A stretch of 19,270 bases of DNA. It comes from Discostella pseudostelligera. Its lineage: Eukaryota; Bacillariophyta; Thalassiosirophyceae; Thalassiosirales; Thalassiosiraceae. The notes below the pieces were generated by a model, which was not told where the DNA came from, made no database searches, and worked only from the letters and a program-made list of their open reading frames with translations. The DNA lies in contig JALLBK010000334.1 in NCBI GenBank assembly GCA_036940085.1, forward strand, positions 1 through 19,270. The letters run 5' to 3'. Within the stretch, counting starts at the first letter, position 1; every line of letters begins with the position of its first letter. Positions 1-19,270 of this stretch are shown piece after piece. The position numbers and the translations under genes were made by a program.

Positions 1-1
1 C

Positions 2-1601: not shown

Positions 1602-1992
1602 ATTTCACCTTGTTTTGCTCCTTTCATACTACAGCACTGGTTGTGCTGGGTGCTGGTCTGGAGCTCGTCCTTTCTGGCCAGGTCCAAAGCAGTTGCATCC
1701 AGCTGCTGTCCACCAGCCACCCCCTTTCCCATACATTAGGGCCAATGAGACAGGACATTGGAGTTATGATGAGAAGGACTCAACGAATGTATTTCACCTT
1801 GTTTTGCTCCTTTCATACTACAGCACTGGTGGTGCTGGGTGCTGGTCTGGTGCTCGTCCTTTCTGGCCAGGTCCAAAGCAGTTGTATCCAGCTGCTGCCA
1901 CCCATGTTTGGTGTTGATCCACCAGCCACCCCCTTTCCCATAAATTAGGGCCAATGAGACAGGACACTGGAGTTATGATGAGAAGGACTCAA
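1602..1992. repeat. Two-copy tandem repeat (189 bp and about 202 bp)
   Basis: Copy 1 is 1602-1790 and copy 2 starts at 1791. Both begin ATTTCACCTTGTTTTGCTCC and end GAGAAGGACTCAA. The offset between copies is 189 bp in the first half and 209 bp in the second, because copy 2 carries a 20-bp insertion at about 1898-1917. Otherwise the copies differ at only a handful of bases. Both contain an open frame, but it has no recognisable protein motif and is better explained by the repeat itself. Confidence 0.9.
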
Positions 1993-1999
1993 TGTAAAG

Positions 2000-2830
2000 G
2001 AGCAGCAGCAACAACTGCTACTGCAGTGGAGGAGGAGGAGCTGGATGCAGGGGTTTGTGCTGAGGAGGAGGAGCAGCAACTGAAGCAGGAGTGATGGTGT
2101 GATGGGTGCAGTGTGATGGGGGCTAACAGGTGAGAGGTGGGGGAGTGGGGAGTGAGATGTGAGAGGATGCTGATGAGGAGAATGATAATACTGAGGAAGT
2201 TGGAAATGTGAGGAGTCAATGAGCACCAACAGCAGTGGAACAGGAGGAGCAGGATACTAGGGATGGTGGTGTGGTCTTCCTCTTTGATAGTAGGGGGCAG
2301 GGTGAGGAGAATAAGCAGCAGAACACCTTGATAGGAATAGGAAGTAAGATGCATGTGTAAGTGTAAGGCGGAGGAAGCGTGGTGTGAAAAGGATGTGGAT
2401 GCCAACTGAAGATGAGGATGATGGATGATGATGTGGCAAGGATGAGGGCCAGCCAGAGGATGATACTGAGGAAGTAAGAAAATGCTGGAGTAGGAGGAGC
2501 AGGAGCATGATGCAATGATGGTATCATGATGAGGAATCAATGACATGGTGGAATGGGTGGATGATGCTTGATGGGTACTGAGGAGAAGGGGGGGGAGGAG
2601 GAGCTGGTGGAGGAGGAGGAGGAGGAGGAGCTGGAGGAGCTGGTGGAGCTGGAGGAGCTGGAGGAGGATCAGGATCAGGACCAGCAGGATCAGGATCAGG
2701 ATCAGGATGCGCAGGATGATGAGCAGGATGATGAGCAGGATGAGGAGCAGGGGGGTGAGCATGGTGAGCAGTGAACAGGATCAGGATGAGCTGGAGCTGG
2801 AGATGATTATTCTGTGATGTTATACTACTA
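2000..2830. repeat. Purine-biased simple-sequence tract (GGA/GAG/GAT-rich on + strand)
   Basis: About 800 bases are dominated by G and A on the + strand, with few C. The densest part is 2590-2760, made of (GGA)n, GGAGCT and GGATCA/GATGAGCA units. Degenerate longer repeats are also visible: GATACTGAGGAAGT-like blocks at about 2185 and 2460, and GGAGCAGGA-like blocks at about 2248 and 2496. Translations are low-complexity in every frame (Glu/Asp-rich on +, Leu-rich or Pro-rich on -). I see no start context, domain or splice structure that would make it a gene. Confidence 0.75.
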
Positions 2831-4248
2831 GTTGAACTGTACCAGTACCACTGCCAAGGATGAAAAGTTGATGAGGACGACATCACACCATCTGACATCT
2901 GACATGACTGTCATGAAAATGATGTCCATGCTGGGATACAAGGATCTAGTTCTACCACTAGCTTGGAGTCAGGAGCAGGAGCCAGGCCCAGACCAGGGGG
3001 AGATGTTAAAAGCCAACCACAAAATGGGGGAAGCCATCAATAATCCATCCATGGTCCCTTCATGTAACAAATTCTTAGGCAAGAAGAAGATGGTCATAGT
3101 CATACAATATCAAATTTGTCTTGCTGACTCCATGCTTTTTGTATTGTTCTTACTTTCTTATTGTTAGAGAACTTCTTAACAGAGGACATGGTGCCTCTCT
3201 CTGCATCGTACTCCTTGTAAGAAGTAGTGCAGGAGAAGATGGAGGGCAGGGTGCAGTGTGAAAACATTTTGAAGTTGAAGTGATGCAAAATCACTGCACC
3301 AGCAGCTAACACTGCTCCTACTACTGGGGCTGGGGCAGCCATCTTCCTCTTGATCATGGGAGGAGAAGATGTCCACTATCTTTTTGAAATACTCCATATG
3401 CAGCAGGGTGCTGGGGGCTGATCATTGATCTTTGATTACCATGACAGTCAGAGTGGGACAGGACTGGAGGGCAACGGTGTGAAGGTGAAGGAGAGGAGGT
3501 AGCATCATGACAGTTGGTGATAAGAAAGTACAACAATGAGCTCCGAGTAACTCTACTAGCAGTCTAATACGCTAGTACCCATACCAGCACAACTACAAAA
3601 TTGCTGCCAAGACACTGACAAATCATTATCTGGTGGCAGCACCAACCAACAATGCTCTTGTTCTTGACACTTGGTACCACTAACACTGCTTTGTGATCAC
3701 TTGTCATGATCATTGTTCATTCATTGTTGTTCTTGTTCCTGAACTTGTTGTTGTGCATTGTGCTTAGTACTAGTAGTAGTACTCTTTAATAGTAGAGTAG
3801 CAGTATTATGTGCCCTGGTGGGGTAGTACTAGCAGAGGATGGTGATTGGTAGATAGCAGCAGTACTAGTAGTAGTACTCCTACTCCTAATCATAATCATT
3901 CATGCTGGGCAGAGGAATGATGCTGTTATTCTTGGACCACCGCCTCCTCCTGCTGCTTACTACATGGAAGTGGCAGAAGAAGAAGAGAAGCACCAAATAC
4001 CTTTGGATTTGGAGTTGGAGTTCTTGGAGGATGGAGGAGGATGATGACAATATATGGAGGCATTCATTTACTACTACTTTAGAATTATTGGAATCCATCA
4101 CTTGATTGGAGAGAGAGCAGGCTTCCTCGAGGTGATTCTGTACACATGTTGTTCCATTCTTAGCTGCTCCTACCATACAACAAGACTTTCTAGTGCTGAA
4201 GAAAATGTTGTAGGTTATGTAATTATTTTGACAATTTATATGTGAGTT
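2831..4248. other. Intergenic spacer, no supported gene
   Basis: About 1.4 kb without any open frame that resembles a protein family. The composition is simple (CAG, GTA and TTG runs). The clearest structure is a 19-bp hairpin-forming repeat present twice at 3766-3784 and 3861-3879. Possible promoter elements for the tRNA at the right edge would be internal to the tRNA. Confidence 0.5.
3766..3879. repeat. Two identical 19-bp hairpin repeats
   Basis: The 19-mer agtactagtagtagtactc occurs at 3766-3784 and 3861-3879. Its ends, AGTACT and AGTACT, are self-complementary, so each copy can form a 6-bp stem with the 6-nt loop AGTAGT. The surrounding sequence is rich in GTA/TAG trinucleotides, so slippage is a simple origin. 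Confidence 0.7.
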
Positions 4249-4320
4249 GGGGATGTAGTTCAGTGGTAGAACGTCTGCTTCGCATGCTGAAAGTCAGGGG
4301 TTCGATTCCCCTCATCTCCA
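4249..4320 (+). tRNA. tRNA-Ala (anticodon CGC)
   Basis: The 72-nt cloverleaf is complete. The acceptor stem GGGGATG (4249-4255) pairs with CATCTCC (4313-4319, one G-U), with discriminator A at 4320. The D stem GTTC/GAAC encloses the loop AGTGGTA. The anticodon loop TTCGCAT places CGC at 4281-4283, which reads the Ala codon GCG. The T arm AGGGG-TTCGATT-CCCCT carries the B box. No CCA is encoded and there is no intron. TTTT at 4323-4326 is a suitable Pol III terminator. The anticodon stem TCTGC/GCTGA has one T-T mismatch in the middle, which is unusual. Confidence 0.93.
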
Positions 4321-4453
4321 CGTTTTATTGTTTTGTTATGTATCCTTCTTTTCCCCTTAAGTATCTTTCAAAATCACACCTGGGTTGTTAAGTATCCTTC
4401 TTAAGTACTTCAAATCTAATTTCCCCAATGCTGCGTCAGCACCCGCGGCCACC

Positions 4454-4531
4454 ATGGCGGACCGACGCCGACGCCTACGCCTACACCTACGCCCACCATC
4501 AATATGTAGCTGGAGGAGTATCGTACTCTAG
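4454..4531 (+). promoter_or_regulatory. Possible uORF with strong start context upstream of Fpg
   Basis: An ATG in the context GCCACCATGG opens a 25-codon frame ending TAG at 4529-4531, about 60 bp before the Fpg start. The peptide begins MADRRRRLRLHLRPP and is Arg-rich. If it is in the Fpg transcript it would act as an upstream ORF and reduce initiation at Fpg. It could instead be a fragment of an organelle-targeting leader, but Fpg enzymes need a free N-terminal Pro, and this frame stops before Fpg. Confidence 0.3.
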
Positions 4532-4593
4532 AGATAGGAGTAGCCGATAGGAGATAGGAGCCGGCATCGCGTCCCACTCCTTCAACTCTAACA

Positions 4594-5840
4594 ATGCCCG
4601 AGCTTCCCGAGGTCGAACATTTTCGTCAGATTCTCCTACCATTACTTGTTGCGTCGGTGACTGAAACATCTGCATCGGCATCGGCATCACATCGGCATCT
4701 GCATCAACATCCGCATCGACAACCAACGTTTCTTCACCTGTCATCGGATTAGAATGCCCTCCTCCGCTACCCACCAAACGATTTCCGTCGCAGGAAGTCA
4801 TCGACCTGATTAATGATGGTTGCTACATAATGAAAGATGTTTTGAGAAAGGGCAAAGTGTTGTGCATAATTTTACAGAAGCAATTAGATGACGCATCATC
4901 ATCCTCGAAGAAGAACGGGAGAGAAAGGAAGAGGAAGCGGCAACAACTTGCAGCTGTTTCAGGTCAAGAAAATATGGGAATAACAGGGACGGAGTCGACG
5001 CTTTATTTATCATTACACATGGGCATGACAGGACGGATTTCTTCCCCAAACAATGTTCCCGGTTTGGAGTCACTCAGTGGAAATGATTCCTACCCACCGC
5101 CGCATACTCACCTCATTATCCGATGCAATGGGAAAGAAGCTGCCTTTTCAGACCCAAGACGATTTGGTAGTGTGTTGGTGGATGTGGGAGATAATGATGC
5201 AACAACATGGTCCTATGATTCAATACCTACCTTTCAAGACATTGCTCCGGATGCACTGCAAATGTCGGAAGCGTACTGCAACATGTTGAAGTCAACAAAC
5301 ATAACTCTTAATCCAGATTCTGAGCAGCCAACAATTATAGAACAACTAGCGAATAAGAAGAAGGGAATCAAGGGACTGCTCCTTGATCAGCGTGCTGTGG
5401 TTAGTGGAATCGGGAATTGGGTGGCAGATGAATTGTTGTATAGAAGTTGCATTCATCCCGACCAATCGTACTTGACCACAGATGAAGCTCATGCATTGTT
5501 GAAAGAAATACAGTATGTGCTTACTACTGCAATATCATGTTCGAAAAATGGCGTCGACTATCCACAGGAGTGGCTGTTTCATCGTCGTTGGAGAAATGGT
5601 GGTGGAAAGGGACATGATAATGCGAAGGATTTCGATGGAAAAAGTATCTCCTTCGTTCAATCGGGAGGCCGATCCACCGCTGTTGTTCCATCAAGGCAAA
5701 AGCCCAAGGCTAGGAAGAGAGTTTGCCAGACGAAGACAAAGAAATCGATCAATAATAATGAATGCGCAGGAGCAACATTGTCCAATGGTGAAGTGCATCG
5801 CAATGAAAAGCTAGGACCACAAAGGAACCACGAGAGGTAA
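4594..5840 (+). CDS. FPG: Formamidopyrimidine-DNA glycosylase (Fpg/MutM family, zinc-less plant/fungal type)
   Basis: This base-excision-repair enzyme removes oxidised purines and cuts the abasic site by beta/delta-elimination. ATG 4594 gives MPELPEVEHFRQILLPLL, the family N-terminus with the Schiff-base Pro2 and Glu3. The body lies in another frame (about 4734-5840): RKGK with the conserved Lys, LHMGMTGRI, SDPRRFG, the helix-two-turn-helix region around LLLDQRAVVSGIGNWVADE (about 5378-5440), and the zinc-less finger GKSISFVQSGGRSTAVVP (about 5640-5690), where bacterial enzymes have four Cys. A Lys/Arg-rich tail follows. The frames must be joined between 4656 and 4793. GT-AG intron 4657-4793 (137 nt) keeps the frame, but it drops the family-like residues LECPPPLPTKRF encoded at 4749-4784. 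Intron 4657-4752 keeps them but breaks the frame. A small indel in the GCATCG-rich stretch is possible. The gene converges on the GH81 gene, with 197 bp between ends. Confidence 0.88.
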
Positions 5841-6037
5841 TTATGAGCGGTTCAGACAGCCGAAAGCGGTTATCGTCAGACGAAGCGGGCATGGGGATAG
5901 AACCAAAGACATCAAGGAGGAGGAGTATGAGACTGAAAATCTATCTCGCAACAAAGCATCATAAGAGTTGTCGTTATAGCAAGACAATTTGATTACAAGA
6001 CAATGCTACAATTACGCTCTAACACAGTACATCGCAT
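5841..6037. other. 3'-3' spacer between Fpg and GH81 genes, with a short ORF
   Basis: This segment separates two convergent genes. It holds a 49-codon frame on + (5843-5992) that starts three bases after the Fpg stop and reads Ser/Arg-rich (RKRLSSDEAG, SRRRSMRLK). It has no family of its own; see the finding on a possible Fpg tail. Confidence 0.4.
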
Positions 6038-9000
6038 CTATCCCTCACAACCTTTGAACAATTCGCAACAAGCAGTACAGTGATACGCATCTAATTCCCA
6101 AGGTGTTGGTGCACAACCACCCATCGCATGCCCTTCGTAACACAAATATGGGGCAGTTCCTATCTGACATTTGTTGATTTTGGATGTACACACTTCAACA
6201 TTGCACGGAGGACATTCAGATGCAGATGTTGATTGATGATCTCTATCCAATTCGTCGGTAATTTCAGATCCAGCACAAACCTTCGGATTGCATGGACCAC
6301 ATTCACGCTCAAATTCGATTCCTGCCACCTGACGACATGCTCCAAGCTCACTAACGCCTAAATTCGTCATGAGCCACTGAATGCGCTCCTTACAAGTAAA
6401 GCCATTTGCATTTGAGCTCAAAGCTTTGCCTACGCATATCTCCGGGCATCCACAATCTATGGCCTGCTTCTGTTCAGACTTTGGCACCGGTAAACTATTT
6501 ATTGAGGTGGACGGGTTCTCCAAATCATACGGAACGCTCGGAGAAGGCCGAGAATAAATATACCACAACGTGTTGGAAAGAGAATGCCCCGAACCTCCTG
6601 CCGATTCAAACACACTCTCTGGCAATGCAAGTGCCTTCTCCATTGCAAGCTTAGGGTGTCCTAGACTGGCTAGAATGGCGTACAGTTGCACTGCCCAACC
6701 CTCATTTATACATAATGGATCAGAATCGCAGCTTTCTACGAAAGACGGATAAAGCTGACGGAGCCATTGGTCGGTGTCACGCCGTTCAGAGACGGGTGTA
6801 ATCGGCAAAAGCTGGATTCCATAGGCAAGAAATGGTGCCGAGCTAGAAGGAAAAGCCACATCAAAGTTAGCCAAATCAAGTATTGATGTAAACAGTTCTC
6901 CAAGGCAGCTTCGCACGAAGTTACGTACCCAAACCACGTTTGCAGTTGGCACATTGTATCCCACATCATGCTCACGACAGCTGGGGTGTAAGTGTCAGCT
7001 GTTCATGTGGTAGTAAATGAATGATAAATGAATGATAGTGTAAGCAGATGGCCAACGTTAAGAACACTGGAAGCATAATCAGCATGAACTCACGATATAT
7101 TTGATGTCGTTTTGGACTGTACACATGCCTGCACAAGTCAAGAATAAAAGGCGCATGCAGTTTAGTGCATAGACTGCAACCGAGATGAGTAGATTTACAT
7201 TCAGTTACACTCACCAATATCGATCTGCAGAACGGATTTCCGTCGCTGCTAGAAAGCGCCCAATATTGAAGATTTGACAAGCAGTATTTGCATTATCGTT
7301 GTCCGATTGACTAGACGAAACACCATTCCCAAAGGCCTTCATCATCACCGAACCAAACATGGCAACGCCCTCATAAGCTGCGATTGCTTCGCTTGATGAT
7401 TCTTGATTTCGTCCATTGAGATAAGGCCGGCCACCAAAAAGAGCGATTCCAGACGCCCAAGAATTTCCAAGGAACCTAAAAGTATCCATCGAATGCGCAT
7501 CATGAAGAATGAGAATTACGACTGTTAACAATTGAATAATTGATACTGAGTATCTTACCAATCTTTTTGTCGGAATACAGGAAAGTAGACATCATTGATG
7601 GAAGGGTTGGCAATATCGCGTATGAAGAGCAGAACATGTTCGAAGTATCTCCGTCCCCAATCGTTGTCGAATTGAGCAACAATTGCTGCTGCATAAATAT
7701 GATACCCATAATGAAAGTGATGGTCGTTGTAGAAGCCATTTCCAAAGTTTAGACCTGGGTCTTGGTAGGAGGGGCAGTTCGGGAAGATATTGTCACATCC
7801 TTCGCCATTAAACAAGCAGCCACAATTGACTAATCCACCCCAAGTATTGTCATATGTGAATGGGGCTACCGCCGTTCCGTTCAGCCATATTTCCACTGCA
7901 CTTCTCAATCTAGCAACTGCATTTTGCATCTCTTCATCAGTTGGAAGCTTTACCTCTTTGCATTTTCGAATGATTTTTGCAAGATTATCTCCTCCGGAGG
8001 TTGATTTATCTGGTATATCTGATTCAGGTGTCTTTGCCAAGTCTCGAAGTTCTTGAGCGATGACTATGATGCGTCCGAGCTTCGCAAGCATTTTTCCGGG
8101 GAAGTAGGTATCACCAGCACCTCGCATATAATTGTCTGGCAACTCGTAAGTTATATCGTTCGAAAGCGCCCTGGCCAATGCAGGAATAACAAGGTGACTC
8201 GGTGGACGTTTGGCGGTGAAACTTGGTAGGCCACCAAGTTCTTTGGCGGGCATGAGTCGGCGACATACAAGAGTCAGTTAGAAAGCACTTTAAACGACAA
8301 TGCAGGAAATGCTCGATCAACATGAATAGTTACCTTCTTCCATGGCCCATAGTCCTCCCTTCACAAGACAAGTATTACCATGCAATGAGTGAACACAATG
8401 CCCCACCACTTCATTACTTGATCGTCCATGCAAGCGTAATATATCAATGTGATGCGGAAGCGCGAACATAAGTAACTCTTTTGTTGCATTTCCCCTGTAA
8501 CTCCTAGCCTCCCAATCGAAGAATAGATATGCACTTCTCCCATCGGGCGACTCTGGTCTCAAACCACCAACCGGATCAGAGAATACATATTTCACCGATG
8601 GAGAGGTTGGGTAGACCTCGGCATGGTCACGCAACAACGAACGAAATGCCGATTGATCACGGGCATTATTCTGGTTGCAAAAGTTGACATTGGTACCAGT
8701 TGTACAGTTGTTGGCCAAGGCAATTCGAACAATCAGTGGTTCGCCGTCTGCTTCCATGTCGGTGAAGGCCTCAATGGGGTTCGCACGGAGCTGGAAGGCA
8801 CTTGGGTTGTTGTCGTGTGACGACGTATCAACAGCACCTGGAGGCAATGATACAGCACCGATGAGTTTGTTTGGATTAATGTAGCATTGAACAAGGACGG
8901 GTCTCGAAAAGAATACCAGCCACGTAAAATCAGATTCGGGGAAGTATAATTCAACGTCCTCATTCACCAGGAAACTCTTGGTTGAATTGGTAGAATGGAT

Positions 9001-10152
9001 TTGCTTTTCAGTGGGTTCCAGAGTACCACATTCCATCCGAGTGACTCCATCAATGAGAGGCGACTTGGCTACAATCTCCGACGCTAAAGTTGGCATGACG
9101 CCTCGTCCATATTCCATCGTGCCATATGACATGCCCCGCAATATACTTGATCGCATGTACCGCTGTTTCTTCTTCATACTACCGTGAACTGCATCATTCT
9201 GTCCACCATTCCAACGCAAACCAATGCCTAACGTACTTGCTAAGGTTTTCTCATCCACTCGATATCTCCTTGTGAAGCCACCATCAGCCGTCCCCAATGT
9301 CAACCCATGCGTATTCACGAGCACACTCTGGACGACAGTGCCATAACTCAAGACGTTGGGATAATGCAATCGTATTCCCACAATGGGACCGACAGTATCT
9401 AAGATGTACGGAATAGTATGCACTCGATTCTCCTCGCCTGCAAAATTCTCATATGCATTATTGGAACCTGGTGTCTCATCGAGACCCACCAATAGATTGA
9501 GGTACCATTCGTTAGTGGGTAGTGGTATGCCAATCTGTGACCCCCGGCGTGCCGATCCAAAGACCGATCCTGGACGAGAAGATTCTGGACGATCATTGTA
9601 CACTGGAATGCCAAGATCACTGGGTGTCTTGTAGGAGAGTGGATCATTTGTGATGAGAGAATATGCTAGATCGAAGTATGGTAGATTAGCAACTTCGGAT
9701 GGTTCCGCTTCATGATGATGTTGATTCGGTGATGATGGGACGTAATGATGGTAGATCGCGATGAACGCTACAAGTGCTGCGATGGAATAAGCCAGCACGA
9801 GATGAATATTCTTGTGTAACAAAGAGAATAGTGAATGCGTGTCATAACTTCTTCTTTCAGTGTGTCCGTTATGAATATGTGGATGTTGTTGGTAGTTACG
9901 ATTGACATCTCCGTCATCCTCTGATGACGACAACGATGCATAAATTTGCAGACCAGATTGATGATGCGTGCCAGCTACGCTTTCATCAACAACGTTGAGA
10001 TCAACGAGTTCCCCACCTAGCAAATGCGCCGCTTCATCGGAAGTAGGCAAACCCATTGTCGTCGTGAGATGTGACAAGGAGGCGGTGATCGATTGACGGC
10101 TGTTATGGCATGGTCTATCGTAGGCCATGGTCCGTGGAGGTCCATGGTCCAT
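6038..10152 (-). CDS. GH81 endo-1,3-beta-glucanase, membrane-anchored, with Cys-rich C-terminal tail
   Basis: Glycoside hydrolase family 81 cleaves beta-1,3-glucans such as callose, laminarin or chrysolaminarin. Four exons join in frame: 10152-8334, 8240-7559, 7475-7215 and 6980-6038, giving 1234 aa. Introns are 93, 83 and 234 nt; the donors are GTAACT, GTAAGA and GTGAGT, and the first acceptor (CAAAG) is weak but is the only one that fits the phase. An N-terminal cytosolic part of about 115 aa precedes one hydrophobic segment (about 117-137), as in a type II membrane protein. GH81 marks are PLPTNEWY (210-217), YNDHHFHYGY with the likely acid Asp779, and NQESSSEA with Glu859 and Glu863 (likely base among them), then YGIQLLPITP. 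The last 160 or so residues are Cys-rich (CGCPEIC, TCKERIQWL, CGPCNPKVC, CPPCNVEVC), a pattern I associate with secreted diatom proteins. Several in-frame ATGs leave the exact start open. Confidence 0.92.
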
Positions 10153-10790
10153 GGCGACTTGATGGGCTGATTGCTGTGATTGATTGGTGTTGGAGTACCT
10201 ACGTGAAAGATACTACCAGTTCACACGTAGAGTATCCACCATCTGTCGCTGCCGACGCCAGACAGACGAATGCCACTCCGACTCCACGTGGAGGTCATTT
10301 GTCACAATTCTCTCCCCTCCACGTGGAGATCATTGCCTCATACTCGCCTGACGCCAGACAGACGAATGCCTTGTTTGTCTCCAAATCCGATGGCGACGGC
10401 AATGGCTGGCCGCCAATGACCAATGGCTATGGCTATGGCAATGACAACGGCAGCCTCTCGTTTGAAGGATGCTACTACCAACCCGAGGACGGCAACAAGA
10501 TGAACGAACATGATGTGATGTAGTGACATAGACTTGCAGCGGCAGCGCCTGCCGAGCGGCAGCGAGTGCCGAAATGGCACTCCGCCTGAGATGAGATAGC
10601 GAAGCGAACTCCCAAGATGGAGGACGCGAACACAAGATGTGACGTCTCGAAATGCATGAGAGATCCGAAACCAAAAAGGAGAACTTCTCGCGCTTGACAC
10701 TTCGGATTAGATGCAACTTACACTTATTGCGCACCATAATAATTTGATGAATTGACCGACCAATTATTTTCAATAGAGTAAAAAGGAACC
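10153..10790. promoter_or_regulatory. Shared divergent promoter region of the GH81 and RLP-transketolase genes
   Basis: 638 bp separate the two divergent starts. No protein gene is supported; the open frames on both strands are compositional. It contains the perfect 12-bp palindrome CTCCACGTGGAG at 10282-10293 and again at 10317-10328, each followed by (G/A)TCATT, and flanked by two identical 21-bp direct repeats at 10254-10274 and 10350-10370. CACGTG cores are bound by bHLH or bZIP factors in many eukaryotes. A 7-bp hairpin, GAGTGCC-GAAAT-GGCACTC, lies at 10564-10582. A regulatory role is inferred from position and symmetry. Confidence 0.55.
10254..10370. repeat. Nested repeat: 21-bp direct repeats enclosing two CTCCACGTGGAG palindromes
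   Basis: The 21-bp sequence starting GACGCCAGACAGACG is identical at 10254-10274 and 10350-10370 (96 bp apart). Between the copies are two 12-bp palindromes with centres 35 bp apart. The arrangement could be paired operator-like sites or the product of a local duplication. Confidence 0.85.
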
Positions 10791-13700
10791 ATGATGGATC
10801 ATTGTCAACGCACTGAGCGATTTTGGGTAGACTACATCGTGGAGGCGTCGTCAAAAGAACATGTTATGGTGAGAGAGTGGAATATGCACACGAATTCATG
10901 ATAATTATGGATAGGCAACAGATTCTCACCAACCATTTGTTTCAATATTGCAATATGTGACAATGGAGAGTAGGCCCTAGCACGTGAGGTGTGTCTCGAA
11001 CAAACCGTAGAACTTCCAGGCATTCTAGATGCAGTGAAAGAGGTGGAGGCGTATACTGTCGGGAGCATCGAGCGCATTGAATTGATTAGCAGGTACGGCA
11101 ATTGCATCTCCAACCATAGCAATCTTAGCACGAGCAATACTACCAACTCTCTTTTCCGAGTTGTCATCGCCTATCCCAACGAAACCGCGGGAGAAGAACT
11201 ACCACAATTTCTGAATGTAGTCTTTGGCAATACATCTCTCAAGTTTGGTATTTCGGTAGAAAATGTGACATTATCTCGGCACTTGATGAACAATCGAAAC
11301 ATGTTCCCAGGACCAAGATTTGGTATTGAGGGACTACGGAAATTGGTAAAGGTACCTCTGGCACCATTGCTTTGTACCGCATTGAAGCCTATGGGACGTT
11401 CCTCGCAAGAATTTGCCGATATGGCCTATTCTCTTGCCAAAGGTGGCATTGATATTATCAAGGATGATCATGGTCTTGGCAATCAAGTATGGTCTCCATT
11501 CGAGGAGCGCATTCGATTATGTAGCCAGGCAGTCTTACGTGCCAACAAAGAAACTGGAAGGAATTCTTTGTACACGCCCTGTCTGAACTGTCCGTCGGAC
11601 AAGATATTTGAGCACGCATTTTATGCCAAAGAATGTGGTGCCGGTGGCGTGATGCTCTTACCTGGTCTATCGGGATGGGATGTAGTGAGACGATTGGCAT
11701 CGGACTGTACGTTTGGACTGCCAATTTTGATCCATCCTGCAATGCTGGGTGGTTGGCTGCAGACTCATTATGATGATACGGAGAAATGTCACAATAATGA
11801 AAGCCATCCGCGTGGTTTGTCGCACAAGTTTCTATTTGGCGTACTGCCTCGATTGTGTGGTGGAGATGGTAAGCGTTATTTTGCATCGCAAGCTCTCTCG
11901 GAGCAATCCATGGACTAACCGATGCTTGTGATCCCAGCTATTATATTTCCAAATTCTGGAGGAAGATTTCAGTTTTCCCAAGACGAATGTCAGCAGATTG
12001 CTGAGGGATGTCGGCGACCCCTGGGCAGATTTCAACCTGCGTTCCCTTCACCAGCAGGCGGTATGAAGCTCGATTGTGTACCAGAAATGAGGAAGACATT
12101 TGGTGATGATACACTGTTTCTAATTGGTGGGGCCCTTCTTGAACAGGGGCCTGATTTGGAAGAAGATGCCCGACTGTTTGCTCACTGTGCTGGACGAGAC
12201 CGTCCTTATTGTGCAGCTGAAGAGTTGCAAAAGTCGAAATCATTTAACGATACAATCCCCAGGAAGGCTCATACCACTGTAATGATAATGAAGAACAAAG
12301 CAAAAGTTGCACCACACACTTCTACGCCTTCCGTCGCCGAGATTGAACAAGTAGCTAATGCAGTGCGTCGTCGTGTACTTGAATACACGCTCAAAAACAA
12401 TGGAGGTTATCTCTCTCAAGCGTGTTCCTCTGCAGAGACATTGGCAACATTATATCTCAAGTCTCTTCGGCTTGGACCAAGTGTGTCGCCCCCGATACCT
12501 CCACCATTTCATGGATCGCCTGGGCCTGGTATTGCAACAATTACCGGAGAGGGCTACAATGGCGACAACACCTCCCCGCACCTGGACCGCCTTATCTTTT
12601 CACCTGTGCATTACGCACTACCGTTGTATTCCCTGCTTGTAGAGATCGGTCGCCTGGACGTCAAAGCGTTTGAAAGCTACAACAAAGATGGCAGTACTGT
12701 TGAGCTTATCGGGGCGGAACACTCTCCCGGACATGCTGTAACTGCTGGCAGTCTCGGGCAAGCACTGAGCCAAGCGGCTGGCATTGCATATGCACGGAAG
12801 TTAAAACACCATACCGGTCGAGTATTTGTTTACATGTCTGATGGCGAGATGCAAGAGGGACAGACATGGGAAGCTGTTCAGGCTATGGTGTTTCTTCATA
12901 TCGAACTGACTGCAGTTGTTGACGTTAATGGCCAGCAATGTGATGGGAAAATGGAGAGTGTCTGTGACGTTGGAAGCCTTGGGAACAAGCTTCGAGCGTT
13001 TGGTGCAGTTGTACGAGAGGTTGATGGGCACAATGTACATGCTATTGATGAGGCGTTAGATCGCGATAATCAATCGGGGCCTACATTTGTCTTGTGCTAC
13101 ACAGACCCTTGCCGCGGCTTTCCATTACTGATGGAGATGGCTCCAAAGTTACACTACATCCGCTTCAAGAATCCCGCCGAGAAGCTGAAATGGGAGAATG
13201 TCCTCGCACAGATGGAATCACCCCGCACATTCCACTGTATGAATAATGCCTCGAAAGCACCACACCAAAATGACAAGCCAATCGCGGCTCAGAGTAAATT
13301 GAATGCACCAACGTCGACTACTCGCCTTGAGCAGTGCTCTGTCCTAAGAGATCTTGAGACTGTAGTGAGACCTCACCAGAGGCGTCTGTTGGAATGGATG
13401 AAAACGAATCCTGATGCAGTANGATCTTGAGACTGTAGTGAGACCTCACCAGAGGCGTCTGTTGGAATGGATGAAAACGAATCCTGATGCAGTAGTACTT
13501 ACAGCCGATCTGACGTCTTCATGTGAAGCTGATCTTGTACGAGACAATCTTCCGAATCAGTATCTCTCGATGGGCATGGCAGAACAAAATATGATGAGCT
13601 TTGCCGGAGGACTCGCCCGGGAAGGATTGAGGTAAGTCATCTCCACCACATCAGATTATGTTTTCCCGAAACTGTGAATAATCTGCCCCCCTTCTGTTGA

Positions 13701-14551
13701 TCTCTAGGCCTTTCATTCACACATTTGGCGTATTTGTAACACGACGCCCCTTTGACCAAGTTGCAATGTCAATCGGTGTACCAAACCTGCCGGTTCGACT
13801 TCTAGGCTTCCTTCCAGGCCTCACAACCCCTGGAGGCGTGACGCACCAAGCCATCGATGATGTGGCCTTAATGAGATCTATCCCCAACATGCGAATACTG
13901 GAAGTTGGAGATGCCACGGAGGTAGAGTCGGTGTTAGATGTAGCTAATTCAATCGACGGCCCTGTCTACATTCGAATGCTACGAGGTGAAGTGCCACGCC
14001 TATTTCCACAGCATTCACAAATGAAACTTGGTGTAGCAAGGTTGCTGTCGGATAGTAGCAGCTGCTTGTCAAGAGACAGTGATGTTGCCATCGTTACATG
14101 CGGCATTTGCACTGAAGAAGCTCTGAAAGCTCGAGAAATGATACAATCATCAGACGTATCAATTCTTCACATCCACCTGAGTACTTTAATCCCATTCCCT
14201 GCAGACGTTATTATGAGAGTCTGCAACATGGTCAAGTTCGGCATCGTAACAATGGAGAACCACAGTATTGTAGGCGGTGTCGGATCTGCAGTAGCAGAAG
14301 TATTGGCGGAGCATGCTGTATCCAAGCCATTGATTCGGCTTGGAGTGTCTAGTGGCACTTATTGTCATGGAGCAAGCCGAGAATACCTTGTCAGAGAGAA
14401 TGAATTCGATGCATTTGCGTTGATACGTGCAATAGAAAATCTTGTTCATCGAACGTTAACTGACGATTGGGTCATAGGTGCAGGGAACGGAAGGCATTCA
14501 ATTCCAAGAGATGATCCAACAGACCGAACGGAACGACCAGAAGATCTTTAA
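10791..14551 (+). CDS. RuBisCO-like protein (form IV) fused to full-length transketolase
   Basis: One spliced reading frame of about 1145 aa holds two enzymes. Exons are 10791-10868, 10974-11868, 11938-13631 and 13708-14551; introns of 105, 69 and 76 nt all have GT(A/G)AG-type donors, and all phases agree once the 73-bp assembly scar at 13350-13422 is discounted. The RLP part (1 to about 415) shows ERFWVDYIVE, CLEQTVELP, FGNTS, GPRFGI, ALKPMG (Lys164, equivalent to RuBisCO Lys175), GGIDIIKDDHG (Lys189 at the carbamylated-Lys position, His192 where RuBisCO has Glu), IHPAM (His280), IFPNSGGRF and AGGM. A linker of about 40 aa leads to the transketolase: GSLGQALSQAAG, the TPP motif SDGEMQEGQ...DVNGQQ (Asp626, Asn655), catalytic Glu849 in GMAEQNMMS, PFIHTFGVF, GGVTHQAIDD and the C-terminal domain (TMENHSIVGGVGSAVAE). 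No targeting peptide is visible, so it is probably cytosolic. ATG 10791 or 10794 is the start; TAA lies upstream in frame. Carbon fixation is unlikely. Confidence 0.92.
13350..13494. repeat. 72-bp exact duplication around a single N (assembly join)
   Basis: Bases 13350-13421 are identical to 13423-13494, separated only by N at 13422. This is what two overlapping contigs look like when placed side by side with a one-base placeholder. The 73-bp excess shifts the frame by one inside the transketolase part, and discounting one copy plus the N makes the frame continuous. It is therefore almost certainly not a biological repeat. Confidence 0.95.
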
Positions 14552-14926
14552 GGAAGCTTGCGTGCCAATTATAGTTCCCATCAATTCACCTCTCGAGGAA
14601 AATACTAATTATGAAAATTTCGTTTCTCCTTTTGATGGGGTGTATTCTTGTGTATTCATTAGGATACAAAGCAAATTGCACTCGTTAACCCAAGTGGTGC
14701 CAACAAGTAATGTTTAGCTGTAATACACTGTAATATTACGTCAGATCTCCACTATCATCTCTGAACATCAAATGAATGTAATTTCGAATAATGCGCCGTT
14801 GCAATTAGCAAAAGAGCCACCATTTCGAAGCCAAGTTGAGAGCAAATTCACCGCATTTTCCCGACAAATAACGACAACCTAAGAGAGCTGAATCTAAGAT
14901 TTTGGACTCTCTTCCAAAACACCTTT
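14552..14926. other. 3'-3' spacer, nothing recognised
   Basis: 375 AT-rich bases separate the ends of the fusion gene (+) and the first cold-shock gene (-). They presumably hold both 3' UTRs. I see no RNA gene, repeat or supported open frame. Confidence 0.5.
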
Positions 14927-15358
14927 TCAATAACGATCTCCGCCACCTCCACCACCACGTCCTCCACCACCTTCGAAACGAGAACGAAATGTACACCACA
15001 TGTTAGCGGAATCGAACACAAATACTGTGTAGTTTCGAGAATTAAACTCAATAACACTGACGACACCTGACACCTGACACATCTTACCTCCATATCCTCC
15101 TCCGCCGCCGCGACCGCCGCCATCACGACGCTGCCTACGCACACCATCGCCATTGCCAGTTACATTGGTAGCACTCCACTTCTGCTTGGCGTCGTCGAAC
15201 TGCTTGTCGAAGGTGACCGTCTCGCCTTCGTTAAGAGACTTGAAGCCGTCGCTGTTGATGGCGGAGAAGTGGACGAAGACATCCTCGCTACCATCCTCGG
15301 GGGTGATGAAGCCGAAGCCCTTGTCGCTGAAGAATTTAACCGTGCCGTTGTTCGCCAT
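14927..15358 (-). CDS. Cold-shock-domain / glycine-rich nucleic-acid-binding protein, copy A
   Basis: A small protein with an N-terminal cold-shock domain (OB fold that binds single-stranded RNA/DNA) and a Gly-rich tail. Exons 15358-15088 and 14970-14927 give 104 aa; the intron 15087-14971 is 117 nt, a multiple of three, so the frame also reads through it. RNP1 is KGFGFI (13-18) and RNP2 is VFVHF (27-31); [18 protein letters not shown] precedes the splice and the C-terminus is GGDRY. There are no CCHC zinc knuckles, unlike many plant relatives. The frame stays open upstream to 15673, but ATG 15358 matches copy B exactly and starts the conserved part. It probably acts as an RNA chaperone in stress or translation control, which is inferred from the family. 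Confidence 0.93.
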
Positions 15359-15789
15359 CTTGGGATCCGAACAAAAAATGATATTACCAATAGGCTCTAT
15401 CGGTGCAGCAGAACAGAATGCGAGAATCGAGTGGTAGTTGGTATTGATGGAGCTTTGTCCGTCATGGTCTGCCCCCCAACCTTCGAGTTGCGACGTCTTG
15501 ACGCGGATCTTGAATTGCAAAATTTCAATTTCAGCGATCATTTCTACTAACAGGATGTTCAAGTACTCGCTGAAATACCCACTTCTCACAAGCGGATGAA
15601 GGGCAGACTGGTGCTCTTCCTGGCCATGCAAAACGTTCGCCATCTGCTTTGGATCTTTTGGGGCCGGCAGCATGCTGCATGCTCAGCAGGTGACACAACA
15701 ACATCAACATGCACCATAGATGCAACAAAACCTCAAGCTCATCAATATCAGTCATAGGCACACAAAGATTCAGGACACAACATTCCAAC
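15359..15789. promoter_or_regulatory. Shared 431-bp divergent promoter region of the cold-shock gene pair
   Basis: Both cold-shock genes start outward from this segment, so it must hold both promoters or one bidirectional promoter. A 12-bp palindrome, GCAGCATGCTGC, is at 15667-15678. The - strand has a 105-codon frame joined to copy A, without recognisable family and without a counterpart upstream of copy B. Confidence 0.5.
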
Positions 15790-16260
15790 ATGGCGAACAA
15801 CGGCACGGTTAAATTCTTCAGCGACAAGGGCTTCGGCTTCATCACCCCCGAGGATGGTAGCGAGGATGTCTTCGTCCACTTCTCCGCCATCAACAGCGAC
15901 GGCTTCAAGTCTCTTAACGAAGGCGAGACGGTCACCTTCGACAAGCAGTTCGACGACGCCAAGCAGAAGTGGAGTGCTACCAATGTAACCGGGAACGGGG
16001 ATGGTGTGCGTAGGCAGCGTCGTGATGGCGGCGGTCGCGGCGGCGGAGGCGGATATGGAGGTAAGATGTGTCAGGTGTCGTCAGTGGTATTGTGTATTGG
16101 TTCTCAAACCCATGCGTGGTGTTTCGATTCTTCTAACATCGTGTCATATGCACTTTGTTCTCATTTCATAGGCGGCGGAGGACGTGGCGGAGGAGGGTAT
16201 GGGGGTGGTGGAGGATATGGAGGCGGGGGATATGGTGGAGGTGGTGGAGACCGTTATTAA
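15790..16260 (+). CDS. Cold-shock-domain / glycine-rich nucleic-acid-binding protein, copy B
   Basis: Exons 15790-16060 and 16172-16260 encode 119 aa; the intron 16061-16171 (GTAAGA...CATAG) is 111 nt. The first 90 residues are identical to copy A, including RNP1 KGFGFI and RNP2 VFVHF. The second exon is longer than in copy A and adds GGGGYGG-type repeats before the same GGDRY end. A longer Gly/Tyr tail may change RNA binding or self-association, which is inference. The intron length is a multiple of three and free of in-frame stops, so retention would insert 37 residues rather than truncate the protein. Confidence 0.93.
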
Positions 16261-16996
16261 GGTCTCGCTTACGATTGGGGTCGTTATTCGTAGATTCAGC
16301 TCTCTCTCTTTGTCACAGGTGTGACCAGATCAACGGAAGATTGGCTCTGAACTTCTTGGCCTCGAAATGAAATGATTGTGTGATGAAAGTATATTTGCTC
16401 TATCCATTCATAAATCTTGCAATACCCACGCATTTTGACCTTCAAAGATGAATCCAGCAGTATGACATATCAAAACCATTCTAAAACTTAAAACTTAGTT
16501 GATCTGACGCCGCCAAATTGACTCATGCCTACCCATTGCATTTCCCGCATCAGAGTGACGAGAGTATATGACATCGATTCGGAACCGAGTTGGAGCTAAC
16601 AAGTGGTGTCTGCGAGGTCGGTAACTGCCCTTGATGTTTGTCGTCGAGGAGAAGCCTATGGTCGAGGGAATGCCGTCACTGTCTATTGATCCTTAGTGAT
16701 CAATGCCTGAAGGCCGATAATTCAAATTGCTGGGTTCGAGGAAAGGATTAAAAGTTCAGAATTAAATATAATCTATCACGGTATTTCAGCTCATCGAAAT
16801 CCATTTTATCCCAATATCAATGAATCATGATCCTTCCTACCATGATGCGGGAAATCAAGGTAGCATTCACCCCATCATTTATGCAAAATATTACTTTCCT
16901 ATTGTTGACCGTGAACATGACCAAGTTGTAATTGTCGATTGTTCTCATCGAAACCGAATCACCAATTCAACAACACCCCGTTTCTATTTCCTCTCA
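16261..16996. other. Spacer with a possibly structured segment, no supported gene
   Basis: This stretch lies between the 3' ends of cold-shock copy B (+) and RPA14 (-). No protein motif was found. The segment 16554-16704 has a 7-bp perfect inverted repeat AGTGACG/CGTCACT spanning 127 nt, and next to it a hairpin ATTGATC-CTTAGT-GATCAAT (16685-16704). It does not match a tRNA, 5S rRNA, U1-U6 snRNA or SRP RNA that I can recognise. Confidence 0.4.
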
Positions 16997-17508
16997 TTAC
17001 TGATATGCAAACATATCATTGTACTTTGGATTTGTTAACACTTTTGATATCAACTCATTATAATTTGGAAAGTCAAATCCGTCGCCCAAATCACGAGAAA
17101 CAAAGTACTGCACACGGGCAGCAGATAGCAAAAGGTGCATGAAAATGAAAGGAAAGAAATGAGTGTCAGATGTGTGATATATCAATGGTGTCGAAGACGG
17201 TACACTACACGAATACACAATGCTCTCAGTCGCCAACGCTCTGAGAAAAAGTAAATAAAACAACTTACTTGAATAGTTCTATCCTCTTGCACGGCACCCA
17301 TAATTTCCACCACCATGCCGGGGACGAAGCTAAAGTCAGGAGATGTCATAATCTGAACCCGACCGCCGTCGACACATTCCAACTCGACAGTTTGCTCACC
17401 GTCGAAACTAATGGCTTTCCCCACAACGCTTGCGATACTTCCGGTGTATGCGCCCGAGTGGACCATGGAGGCATTGAGACGGGGGAAAGCACCTTCGGGT
17501 AAGGACAT
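16997..17508 (-). CDS. RPA3: Replication protein A 14 kDa subunit (RPA3-like)
   Basis: The smallest subunit of the RPA heterotrimer, which coats single-stranded DNA in replication and repair. Exons 17508-17269 and 17107-16997 give 116 aa, close to the usual 110-125; the intron 17268-17108 (161 nt, GTAAGT...TGCAG) is in phase 0. The OB-fold pattern is present: PRLNASMVHSGAYTGSIASVVGKA, then FVPGMVVEIMGAVQEDRTIQ, and in exon 2 LGDGFDFPNYNELISKV, which fits the family ending with a conserved G-D-x-F-D. The frame stays open upstream of ATG 17508, but that part is Ser/Arg-rich and not family-like. It is divergent from RPF1. The assignment rests on recalled consensus, and RPA3 is a fast-evolving family. 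Confidence 0.85.
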
Positions 17509-17911
17509 GATGAGGGAGGTTCGGTAGTAGTAGGAGTTATCACGAGATGGAGGAGGGTGAGAAGTGAGAGTGGCACGAGATGGAGATTTTTGATTTTTTG
17601 GATTTGGCAATGACGATGACGAGGCGCGCCAAAATGAAGAGGGGAGAACCAGAGTCGGTCTGTCCGTGGTTAGTCTGCCCCTCACCCGGCGGCGCAGCCA
17701 CAAAAATCAAGCGAAGCCGCAGCCGCCACCAAATCCAACACATCAAAATTCACCATCAACCTCCATCTATCAATCACCATGACCGCCACCTCCATGTCGC
17801 ACCTAGTACTGCTTTTGACGACTATCTATACCATCTAAATACCTCGGTAGGAACGAGACGCAACACATACCATAGCACCCCACGAACAATAGCACCATAA
17901 TCATCATCGTC
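17509..17911. promoter_or_regulatory. Divergent promoter region between RPA14 and RPF1
   Basis: 403 bp separate two outward-facing housekeeping genes, so both promoters lie here. No TATA-like box at a convincing distance or strong repeat was seen. The segment next to RPF1 is rich in CCA/ATC runs. Confidence 0.45.
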
Positions 17912-18958
17912 ATGGCCCCATCAAAACGCAAAGGGGGACATGCCAGTCTCCAAGGCAAAAAGCCCTCCAACACCGCCAAGGTCAAGCGGCGCACGGTGAC
18001 TACCAATCCAGGCCACATTCAAAACAAACTCAAACGTTCTGAAATGTATGCCAAATACCTATTGGATAAGAAGGCCGCGAAACGTCAATCTCGTATCCAA
18101 CGTGAGAAGGAGGCCGAGGCCCTCGGCGAGGATGAGGCTGCACGCAAGCGTCTCACGCCACGAACATTGGACAATACCCGTGAGATGGAAGAAACGACTG
18201 TCCAGCCTGATGATGAAGAGATTCTCGCCGATGAGGCCGAGGATGAATTTGCACCGTATTTCTCCGATGAAATTCGTCCCAAGATACTATTAACGACACG
18301 TCCCTGTCCGTCGGCGGAGCTATTCCATTTTATTTCTGACCTGATGAGATTCATTCCACAACTGTACTACTATCCACGAAAATCCTACTCGGTAAAAGAA
18401 ATTTGCACCTTTGGGAGTAATCGAAAATTCACACATTTGATTGTACTCTCTGAAAAAAGCAAGGTGTGCAACGGTATGCTAATATCGCACCTACGTCCAT
18501 CCACGGCGGGGAATTGTTTGGGTGGACCGACCGCCTTCTTCAAGGTGTCCAATGTCATTCCATCGACGGATGTTCCCAACAATGGATCGGCGACGAGTCA
18601 TGTCCCCGAATTGAATTTGCATGGATTTACAACACGGCTCGGACATCGTGCCGGACGATTCCTCGGTAGTTTATTTCCACACAATGCCCAATTTCAGGGA
18701 CGGCAGGTGGCAACATTTCACAATCAGCGTGATTTTATTTTTGTGCGACATCATCGGTATGTCTTCGAGGAAGGACCACATGTGAATAAAGAGAATGGAA
18801 AGAAGAAGACGAAGGCGCGGTTGCAGGAACTTGGCCCACGATTCACGTTGAAGATGAGGTGGTTGCAGGAGGGTACATTTGATACACAGTTTGGAGAGTA
18901 CGAGTGGTTTCATAAGAGGAAGGAGATGGATACTACGAGGAGAAAGTTCCATTTGTAG
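17912..18958 (+). CDS. RPF1: Ribosome production factor 1 (Brix-domain 60S biogenesis protein)
   Basis: Rpf1 is a nucleolar Brix-family protein needed for large-subunit rRNA processing. It is a single exon of 348 aa (human about 349, yeast 295). The basic N-terminus (KRKGGH, KVKRR) and a Lys/Arg/Glu-rich, probably coiled segment (about 40-80) precede an acidic patch (about 100-118). The Brix domain runs from about 122 to 325: PKILLTTRPCPSAELFHF, RKFTHLIVLSE, GPTAFFKVSN, HGFTTRLGHRAGRFLGSLFP, VATFHNQRDFIFVRHHRYVFE and ELGPRFTLKMRWLQEGTF. It ends GEYEWFHKRKEMDTTRRKF, the usual family C-terminus. A short insertion (about STAGNCL, 197-203) splits the usual HLPxGPTA motif. ATG 17912 has an A at -3 on the minus side of TCATGG and is the first in frame. 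Confidence 0.96.
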   Translation: MAPSKRKGGHASLQGKKPSNTAKVKRRTVTTNPGHIQNKLKRSEMYAKYLLDKKAAKRQSRIQREKEAEALGEDEAARKRLTPRTLDNTREMEETTVQPDDEEILADEAEDEFAPYFSDEIRPKILLTTRPCPSAELFHFISDLMRFIPQLYYYPRKSYSVKEICTFGSNRKFTHLIVLSEKSKVCNGMLISHLRPSTAGNCLGGPTAFFKVSNVIPSTDVPNNGSATSHVPELNLHGFTTRLGHRAGRFLGSLFPHNAQFQGRQVATFHNQRDFIFVRHHRYVFEEGPHVNKENGKKKTKARLQELGPRFTLKMRWLQEGTFDTQFGEYEWFHKRKEMDTTRRKFHL

Positions 18959-19270
18959 ATGCGTGTGGTGTTGGCGTTCAGTGGCATTCACTGCAGAGAC
19001 GTGGTTTTGATGAGAGTTTCAATGCTCTAGACTTGATGATGCAGAACAAGTACGGTGCAGTTCAAGTTGCATCTTAACAGTGTTAATTTGCATGCAAAGA
19101 CGAGTCTAGATAACCACGAAGTCATTTATCATTTATCACGGGGAAGTGTTGCATTCTTCTCCTCTTCCTTTTTCAGTCTTCCGCCGCCTTCGCAGCTCTC
19201 TTGCAGTGCTACTGATTACTTGCCTTCGCTGTCTTTCCCTTTTTCCCATCGCCATAGATGGACTTTATGA
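18959..19270. other. Right-edge spacer, possible start of another gene at 19258
   Basis: 312 bases follow RPF1. The last 120 are pyrimidine-rich (runs of CTT, TCC and CCTTTTT), and an ATG at 19258 (ATGGACTTTATG) reaches the window edge. This could be a 5' UTR and first codons of a + strand gene, but too little is visible to claim it. Confidence 0.25.

Follow-up and report, generated by a model that had tools for sequence, protein, structure and literature searches.

The window analysed here is a stretch of 19,270 nucleotides (contig JALLBK010000334.1, positions 1 to 19,270 of the forward strand) from the diatom Discostella pseudostelligera, and on its + strand it encodes, in four exons, a protein of 1145 amino acids in which a RuBisCO-like protein (RLP) is fused to a transketolase-like enzyme (TK). 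An earlier note on this DNA had claimed such an in-frame fusion, and rechecking of the gene model bears it out: leaving out one copy of an assembly scar, the exons sum to 3438 nt, that is 1146 codons including the stop codon, with no internal stops, just as had been counted. The three introns are GT-AG as described, and the stop at 11916 lies inside the 69-nt intron. The parts of the gene are:

10791..10868, + strand: exon 1 (26 codons), from the gene model, matched by the N-termini of homologues (HPERFWVDY...)
10869..10973, + strand: intron 1, 105 nt, GT-AG
10974..11868, + strand: exon 2, bulk of the RLP domain (EQTVELP, ALKPMG, IKDDHG, HPA)
11869..11937, + strand: intron 2, 69 nt, GT-AG, holding the in-frame stop at 11916
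11938..12222 (right limit approximate), + strand: start of exon 3, C-terminal part of the RLP (FPNSGGRF, PSPAGGM, LIGG)
12223..12326 (limits approximate), + strand: RLP-TK linker, ~35 residues, poorly conserved
12327..13349, + strand: N-terminal domain of the TK, binding thiamine diphosphate (ThDP), and start of the inter-domain stretch
13350..13422, no strand: assembly scar, an exact 72-nt copy of 13423-13494 plus one N, outside the gene proper
13423..13631, + strand: last part of exon 3, in which the TK pyrimidine-binding domain begins (TADLTSS; MAEQNMM, which holds the catalytic Glu)
13632..13707, + strand: intron 3, 76 nt, GT-AG
13708..14551, + strand: exon 4, TK pyrimidine-binding and C-terminal domains, stop codon

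Exon 3 is taken as 11938-13631 minus the scar copy 13350-13422. The same 72 nt stand on both sides of the single N at 13422 (a direct duplication, 13350-13494), and as a database protein, P0078 (sources ncbi and jgi; 99.6% identity to residues 325-865), aligns ungapped across this N, the duplication is an assembly artefact, an unmerged contig overlap, as the earlier note had suspected. Pfam recognizes RuBisCO_large (E 1e-16), Transketolase_N (1e-15), Transket_pyr (4e-11) and Transketolase_C (2e-11) in the fusion, all over cut-off, and the RuBisCO large-subunit catalytic domain PF00016 scores 61.6 bits against a cut-off of 30.1. The RLP part, previously thought to be almost complete, spans residues ~9-410 and is complete relative to the alignment of its own family. 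By eye there is no obvious plastid-targeting extension in the window protein or in P0005 and P0008, which makes a cytosolic location of the fusion protein likely; P0001 has a long N-terminal extension.

The architecture recurs in other diatoms. Homologues were sought among candidates of 0.55-1.75 times the full length, scored on the RLP part only, and their partner domains were counted over the precomputed Pfam column of the 72 matches: 25 carry TK domains, 29 carry Cupin_2 and 18 carry neither. Four of the 25 TK-bearing matches (P0069-P0072) have no listed RuBisCO_large and yet align to the RLP part. Thalassiosira profunda and Cyclotella atomus have the TK fusion with the full TK domain set; in the fusion model of T. 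exigua only the N-terminal TK domains are listed, and in that of Skeletonema marinoi Transketolase_C is not listed. All four are Thalassiosirales, and a further TK fusion is a predicted protein with the prefix CCRYP, which we take to stand for Cyclotella cryptica; no T. pseudonana or pennate diatom is named among the homologue lists. The transcriptome open reading frame (ORF) P0014 (MMETSP) aligns as a single unbroken piece to residues 131-1145, indicating that one mRNA crosses the RLP-TK junction.

The second kind of fusion found among the matches, in algae, carries a cupin at the C-terminus, in the place of the TK. This set includes P0205, which bears a Euglena-style transcript name, and its cupin domains share 37-38% identity (E 2e-21 to 7e-30) with the cupin of the bacterial RLP locus L072 described below. 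In the diatom fusion Pfam found no cupin domain. As an observation in its own right, the algal RLP-cupin fusions P0011, P0017, P0037 and P0205 are candidates for a single-polypeptide enzyme pair of the 5'-methylthioadenosine (MTA)-isoprenoid shunt.

The RLP half has as its best match in the PDB, far ahead of all others, the structure 3qfw, which we take to be RLP1 of Rhodopseudomonas palustris. With site positions given in what we assume to be spinach RuBisCO numbering, all 95 family rows, 3qfw among them, have H at the equivalent of E204, and three MtnW-type rows have E there; the K201-to-H204 stretch lies outside the peptides by which the prokaryotic loci were fetched. The equivalents of K175, K201, D203, H294 and N123 are invariant in the same 95 rows, N123 and K175 partly by selection since the fetching peptides lie around these two, and the N123 position is K in the three MtnW-type sequences. 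By its catalytic domain and its departure from the RuBisCO site at E204, the RLP half is assigned to the RuBisCO superfamily as a form IV RLP. Identity with MtnW was rejected on these site residues and on the MtnW models, on which the exon-2 piece scores 131.8 bits against a cut-off of 409 (NF007095) and 103.1 against 513.6 (TIGR03332).

A tree of the RLPs was built with 76 of 80 prokaryotic loci (L039, L050, L057 and L065, having no RLP ORF in the cluster, were dropped). The algal sequences form one clade (support 99) with the diatom TK fusions (100) nested inside it, and the sisters of the latter, going outward, are P0011 (96), P0017/P0019 (99) and P0065 (100), all with an annotated cupin; ten algal rows are labelled as cupin fusions in the tree, and for two of them, P0023 and P0041, the precomputed Pfam column lists no cupin. 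As MtnW-type sequences alone serve as the root of the tree, with Photo and NonPhoto RLPs left out, and 3qfw sits on a very long branch in a weak position, it is likely rather than proven that the diatom RLP belongs with the characterised 5-methylthioribulose-1-phosphate 1,3-isomerases, the DeepYkr RLP group. DeepYkr RLP1 of R. palustris is reported to convert 5-methylthioribulose-1-phosphate in vitro to 1-methylthio-xylulose-5-phosphate (MTXu-5-P) and 1-methylthioribulose-5-phosphate in a 3:1 ratio, and a cupin encoded at the next locus number to strip methanethiol, giving 1-deoxyxylulose-5-phosphate (PMC5893883; PMC6302742).

The TK half retains the ThDP machinery and has lost part of the canonical substrate site. 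Its tree was built with the 35 loci in which both TK parts were long enough and with 11 of the listed database proteins; positions and their roles follow what we take to be yeast transketolase numbering, and that of H30 was placed via an alignment with human transketolase and DXS. All three domains are present, and the D and N of the ThDP motif, the catalytic Glu and the equivalents of H481 and R528 are each conserved in 55 of 55 subfamily rows, that of S386 in 54. The substrate-site equivalents of H30, H469 and D477 are Y, L and G in all 55, in contrast to the diatom genome's own canonical transketolase, which has H and D at the H469 and D477 positions. The best scores on the NCBIfam transketolase model, 141 bits for one piece of the window protein and 118 for another, stay under cut-off, and even the full-length subfamily member P0086 reaches 337 of 488; on the NCBIfam DXS model the C-terminal piece of the window protein scores 96 bits against 466. 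The best PDB relatives of this half are human and split transketolases. Judged from residues and models, the TK half is a distinct ThDP-dependent subfamily and not a canonical transketolase, so that the earlier description of a full transketolase holds for completeness and fails for type. The Y/L/G site would fit a sugar phosphate with a normal phosphate end and an altered C1 end, such as 1-methylthio- or 1-deoxy-xylulose-5-phosphate. In the tree the diatom TKs form one clade (95) within the TKs of bacterial operons, nearest to the bacterial-looking P0088 (100); deeper branches are weak.

The same pair of enzymes is encoded side by side in bacteria and in an archaeon. GTDB species genomes were scanned with eight algal RLPs, the loci being fetched via two peptide patterns of the FGNTS or TALKPMG type; of 142 confirmed loci 80 were kept, in which many contigs end close to the RLP and ORFs were called mechanically. 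A TK of the same subfamily lies within 4 kb and on the same strand as the RLP in 53 of the 80 loci, and in 44 of the 65 having at least 2.5 kb before the RLP; a stricter tally over the mechanical ORFs (same-strand run, gaps below 250 nt) gave 39 of 76, one of which (L018) is MtnA rather than TK. In L018 MtnA stands immediately before the RLP, with neither TK nor cupin in the stretch. The typical gene order is TK_N, TK_C, RLP. Where an ORF of the TK cluster, which for this count also contains MtnA, precedes the RLP (48 loci), the distance is no more than +-50 nt in 28, and in 15 there is a 4-nt overlap. The 53 TK loci are spread over Pseudomonadota (17), Chloroflexota (15), Bacillota (8), Spirochaetota (4) and Acidobacteriota (2), with single loci in Nitrospirota, Planctomycetota, Myxococcota and the archaeal Promethearchaeota and three lacking a named phylum. 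Viral carriers were rejected, as none of 39 pattern matches among viral contigs is a relative.

The neighbouring genes point to the salvage of methylthioribose, the sulfur sugar that remains after S-adenosylmethionine has been used, or of 5-deoxyribose. Of the 53 TK loci, 16 have MtnA in the stretch and 10 have MtnK; among the 27 other loci one has MtnA and none has MtnK. Both exceed their curated cut-offs in the operon of C. ljungdahlii (MtnK 432.6 over 275, MtnA 427 over 279), as does MtnK in Lokiarchaeota (469 over 275), and in the alphaproteobacterial metagenome-assembled genome (MAG) L024 MtnA is fused to TK_N (314-2260), a layout that another alphaproteobacterial MAG, L033, resembles by length and match. 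An RLP match was present in 27 plasmid records, and the four regions examined (Pararhizobium, Mariluticola, Shinella and Rhizobium) all read mtnK-mtnA-TK_N-TK_C-RLP beside a divergent sugar ABC transporter. Further genes of this kind are a methylthioinosine phosphorylase over cut-off in L073 (244 over 223), a nucleoside-phosphorylase-type gene in L044, under cut-offs, and a Cys/Met-metabolism enzyme dependent on pyridoxal phosphate in the Alicyclobacillus operon L076, under the listed cut-offs. A cupin occurs in 3 of the 27 loci without TK and in none of the 53 with it, as far as the stretch is available; one of these, L072, has the RLP beside a cupin and an O-acetylhomoserine (OAH) sulfhydrylase (588 over 495), the gene set expected for the MTA-isoprenoid shunt. 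Two smaller groups were also seen. In L027, L035, L053, L055 and L061 the RLP lies near an FGGY-type sugar kinase with no TK in the stretch, perhaps reflecting a different pentulose substrate, and the TK-RLP loci L014, L015 and L038 contain an LsrF-like aldolase, a short-chain dehydrogenase and a class II aldolase.

RLP-cupin and RLP-TK fusions are mutually exclusive among the 72 matches, none of which has both domains. As the diatom RLPs fall within the cupin-fusion clade and their TKs within the TKs of bacterial operons, the nearest relatives of the one half are not those of the other. A swap would explain this most simply: in an ancient algal fusion of RLP and cupin, a TK like those of the bacterial operons would have taken the cupin's place. 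Supposing that the cupin works on what the RLP makes, its successor probably does so too, a suggestion drawn from position and exclusion. One RLP with two alternative fused partners would then be a natural domain swap that marks enzymes probably acting consecutively. The earlier idea that the halves act in sequence stands in this respect, given the conserved diatom fusion and the adjacent, often overlapping bacterial genes, whereas its suggested chemistry, an enolisation or decarboxylation feeding ordinary ketol transfer, is not what the MtnK, MtnA and cupin context or a TK that is non-canonical in 55 of 55 rows suggests.

Based on these data we propose, with a probability of roughly 0.6, that the fusion is a bifunctional MTA-salvage enzyme whose RLP half makes MTXu-5-P and whose TK half cleaves it. 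Placement of the pair in MTA/5-deoxynucleoside salvage is well supported. The salvage context (MtnK, MtnA and the cupin-fused sisters) predicts that the RLP half would carry out the 1,3-isomerisation of 5-methylthioribulose-1-phosphate to MTXu-5-P. In the TK half ThDP would add to C2 of MTXu-5-P and the C2-C3 bond would be broken, releasing glyceraldehyde-3-phosphate, while the methylthio-C2 fragment would stay on the cofactor. This fragment could lose methanethiol by beta-elimination, leaving acetyl-ThDP, which would give acetate on hydrolysis or hand its acetyl group to an acceptor; alternatively, the fragment could depart as methylthioacetaldehyde. In diatoms the TK would have taken the place of the cupin methylsulfurylase to which this RLP is fused in other algae, and in bacteria the same pair would work from separate adjoining genes, partly together with MtnK, MtnA and a sugar transporter. 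Physical channelling between the halves, putative as it is, appears plausible. 5-deoxyribose derived from 5'-deoxyadenosine may be a second substrate, presumably less preferred than its methylthio analogue, and the proposal allows one enzyme to serve both. Only tentatively do we go further, to an undescribed O2-independent salvage of methionine and 5-deoxynucleosides in bacteria, an Asgard archaeon and diatoms, in which the RLP would feed a ThDP enzyme that frees methanethiol in a phosphoketolase-like manner and in which the diatom polypeptide would have arisen by the exchange of a cupin for a bacterial TK.

The main competitor of this proposal keeps the pathway and changes the substrate: the pair might serve mainly in the disposal of 5-deoxyribose, 5-deoxyribulose-1-phosphate being isomerised to 1-deoxyxylulose-5-phosphate and this being cleaved to glyceraldehyde-3-phosphate and a C2 unit, the reverse of DXS chemistry. 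MtnK and MtnA are described as 5-methylthioribose/5-deoxyribose enzymes of the dihydroxyacetone phosphate (DHAP) shunt (PMC10986504), the operon context fits equally well, and as the two enzymes also act on 5-deoxyribose they cannot separate the two substrates. Many carriers of the operon are anaerobes, in which by-products of radical-SAM enzymes would be abundant; aldolase and dehydrogenase genes lie close to the pair in L014, L015 and L038, and the four plasmid regions have such genes at their edge; TK_C of C. ljungdahlii scores 193 bits on the DXS model (cut-off 466); and a promiscuous transketolase has been suggested to act late in 5'-deoxyadenosine salvage (PMC8102628). Against this, the cupin of the sister fusions corresponds to the sulfur-releasing enzyme of a known shunt, and MTA derived from polyamines should be the larger flow in diatoms. 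We consider 5-deoxyribose unlikely as the chief substrate and retain it as the main rival because the link to the cupin-fused sisters is the only one that favours the sulfur sugar.

Less probable still is that the TK half does the work of a normal transketolase in the pentose-phosphate cycle, its linkage to the RLP just balancing pentose-phosphate supply. The conserved ThDP motif, catalytic Glu and S386 and R528 equivalents would suit such an enzyme, as would the human and split transketolases being its closest structures, and yet the H30 to Y, H469 to L and D477 to G replacements are uniform, no NCBIfam transketolase cut-off is reached, and the genome has at least one separate canonical transketolase, and a DXS, by alignment. 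In a further reading the RLP half would run another RLP reaction, that of the MtnW enolase or of the 3-oxo-isoapionate-4-phosphate decarboxylase OiaX, with a TK of the apulose-4-phosphate type. Apiose pathways also use a transketolase. RLPs do occur in apiose catabolism (PMC6302742), and the RLP half scores 132 bits on the MtnW model and 75 on that of OiaX. These scores are far under the cut-offs of 409 and 700 (the exon-2 piece has 75.4 bits on OiaX), the E204 equivalent is H rather than the E of MtnW, and apart from weak OiaX matches to RLPs no apiose-pathway model is among the matches of the scanned proteins; with MtnK and MtnA in the operons, the pairing of OiaX with an apulose transketolase was dropped and this family of readings is very improbable. 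That the fusion itself is an artefact of gene model or assembly we find scarcely credible: there is a genuine scar within the gene and the introns of this copy were deduced from its sequence alone, and the architecture is nevertheless seen in several named diatoms, on other contigs and in one transcript ORF.

Several observations weigh against the proposal of an MTXu-5-P-cleaving salvage enzyme, in addition to the weak tree position of 3qfw. Two equivalents in the TK half vary among the 55 rows, H69 (Q in 11) and R359 (R in 31, K in 21 and Q in 3), and we know of no enzyme of this TK group that has been assayed. MtnA is missing from the available stretch in 37 of the 53 TK loci, and an OAH-sulfhydrylase-type gene is present in only 1 of 53 (under cut-off) as compared to 2 of the 3 cupin loci; given its rarity near the TK, release and capture of methanethiol have thin genomic support. 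In the 23-Mb draft genome of the diatom MtnA is over cut-off, and a near full-length homologue of methylthioribose kinase has 186 bits, under the cut-off of 275. A two-piece gene of the nucleosidase family resembles plant MTA nucleosidase by eye, and MTA phosphorylase was not convincingly found, the best match having 57 bits; this match was rejected as MTAP since it is PNP-like by eye. The MtnB and MtnC models gave no match in the draft (the PF00596 match L088 was discarded as MtnB, being adducin-like by eye), nor did the algal cupin, in a search that had no positive control. The genome has one copy of an acireductone dioxygenase (contig C86, L086; 136 bits), and as the draft is of unknown completeness classic methionine salvage may exist in the diatom too. 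A metabolic model of T. pseudonana has methionine salvage yield formate as a side product (PMC7990286), and R. palustris is reported with the same remainder of genes, MtnP, MtnA and a putative MtnD (PMC5893883). Among 22 TK-RLP genomes, which we selected from the 53 TK loci, 21 lack an acireductone dioxygenase over cut-off, the exception being Alicyclobacillus, with one more match below threshold; as 12 of 14 control genomes lack it likewise, this absence is weak evidence and was rejected as proof of pathway replacement.

Elsewhere in the window lie genes of other kinds. A gene for a formamidopyrimidine-DNA glycosylase (Fpg/Nei-like) is at 4665-5840 (+) and one for a glycosyl hydrolase of family 81 (beta-1,3-glucanase type) at 8317-10212 (-). 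Two divergent cold-shock-domain genes, 14927-15682 (-) and 15694-16260 (+), are nearly identical over a 298-nt inverted repeat, which is 98% complementary with arms 415 nt apart. They are followed by genes for replication factor A subunit 3, 17182-17706 (-), and a Brix-domain ribosome-biogenesis protein, 17876-18958 (+). Between 2000 and 2900 the GC skew is strong (~0.6) and the + strand is purine-rich, with long low-complexity open frames.

If the proposal is true, it gives a function to a recurrent RLP-transketolase gene pair and describes a branch of methionine salvage that would need neither oxygen nor a cupin step. Were the methanethiol route to operate, these diatoms would count among the direct biological sources of methanethiol, which has a key place in the sulfur cycle (PMC5893883). 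For their silica shells diatoms synthesise very long-chain polyamines (PMC6302742), and with polyamines as a source of MTA and methanethiol in this role, the pathway may matter for marine sulfur flow. A fusion or operon of an RLP with a transketolase is not described in the title or the start of the abstract of any paper found in open-licence PMC. By word search the term transketolase is absent from four salvage papers, including PMC6302742, PMC5893883 and PMC10986504, and a Euglena longa paper was set aside as a prior report because its lone mention of 'RuBisCO-like' does not concern this system.

Of the known systems, the MTA-isoprenoid shunt of Rhodospirillum rubrum and R. palustris is closest, having the same RLP site signature and MtnA upstream, and algae fuse the same RLP to a cupin like that beside a bacterial RLP. 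Here, in contrast, a transketolase-like ThDP enzyme stands where the shunt has its cupin methylsulfurylase, and triose phosphate and a C2-sulfur fragment would be expected in place of 1-deoxyxylulose-5-phosphate. With the DHAP shunt, in which MtnP or a nucleosidase with MtnK, then MtnA and the Ald2 aldolase handle MTA and 5'-deoxyadenosine (PMC10986504), the proposed pathway would have in common the entry steps and a cleavage to triose phosphate and a two-carbon fragment; an isomerase and a ThDP enzyme would replace the aldolase, and glyceraldehyde-3-phosphate rather than DHAP is expected. Universal methionine salvage (MtnB and MtnC, or MtnW and MtnX, and MtnD) also employs MtnA, as well as MtnK in bacteria, and its MtnW is an RLP too. 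The diatom genome has an MtnD-type gene and leaves the MtnB and MtnC models unmatched in the draft, and the present RLP is not MtnW by model or by site residues.

The remaining likenesses concern the TK half. In Synechococcus elongatus a promiscuous transketolase is reported to make 7-deoxysedoheptulose from 5-deoxyribose, and this transketolase too handles a compound formed in 5'-deoxyadenosine salvage; there, unlike what we propose here, an ordinary enzyme uses the deoxy-sugar as its acceptor, with an affinity 100-fold below that for ribose-5-phosphate (PMC8102628), and a word search of that paper returned no mention of RuBisCO. With the transketolase/DXS family, including the split transketolase of Carboxydothermus (6yaj/6yak), the TK half shares by sequence the three domains of a ThDP enzyme and the catalytic Glu, and in many bacteria it is divided into two genes as the Carboxydothermus enzyme is. 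It differs in forming a subfamily of its own, with the Y/L/G site and scores under the listed NCBIfam cut-offs. Each component family is thus known from other systems, and what is new to us is their combination and the reaction that it would imply.

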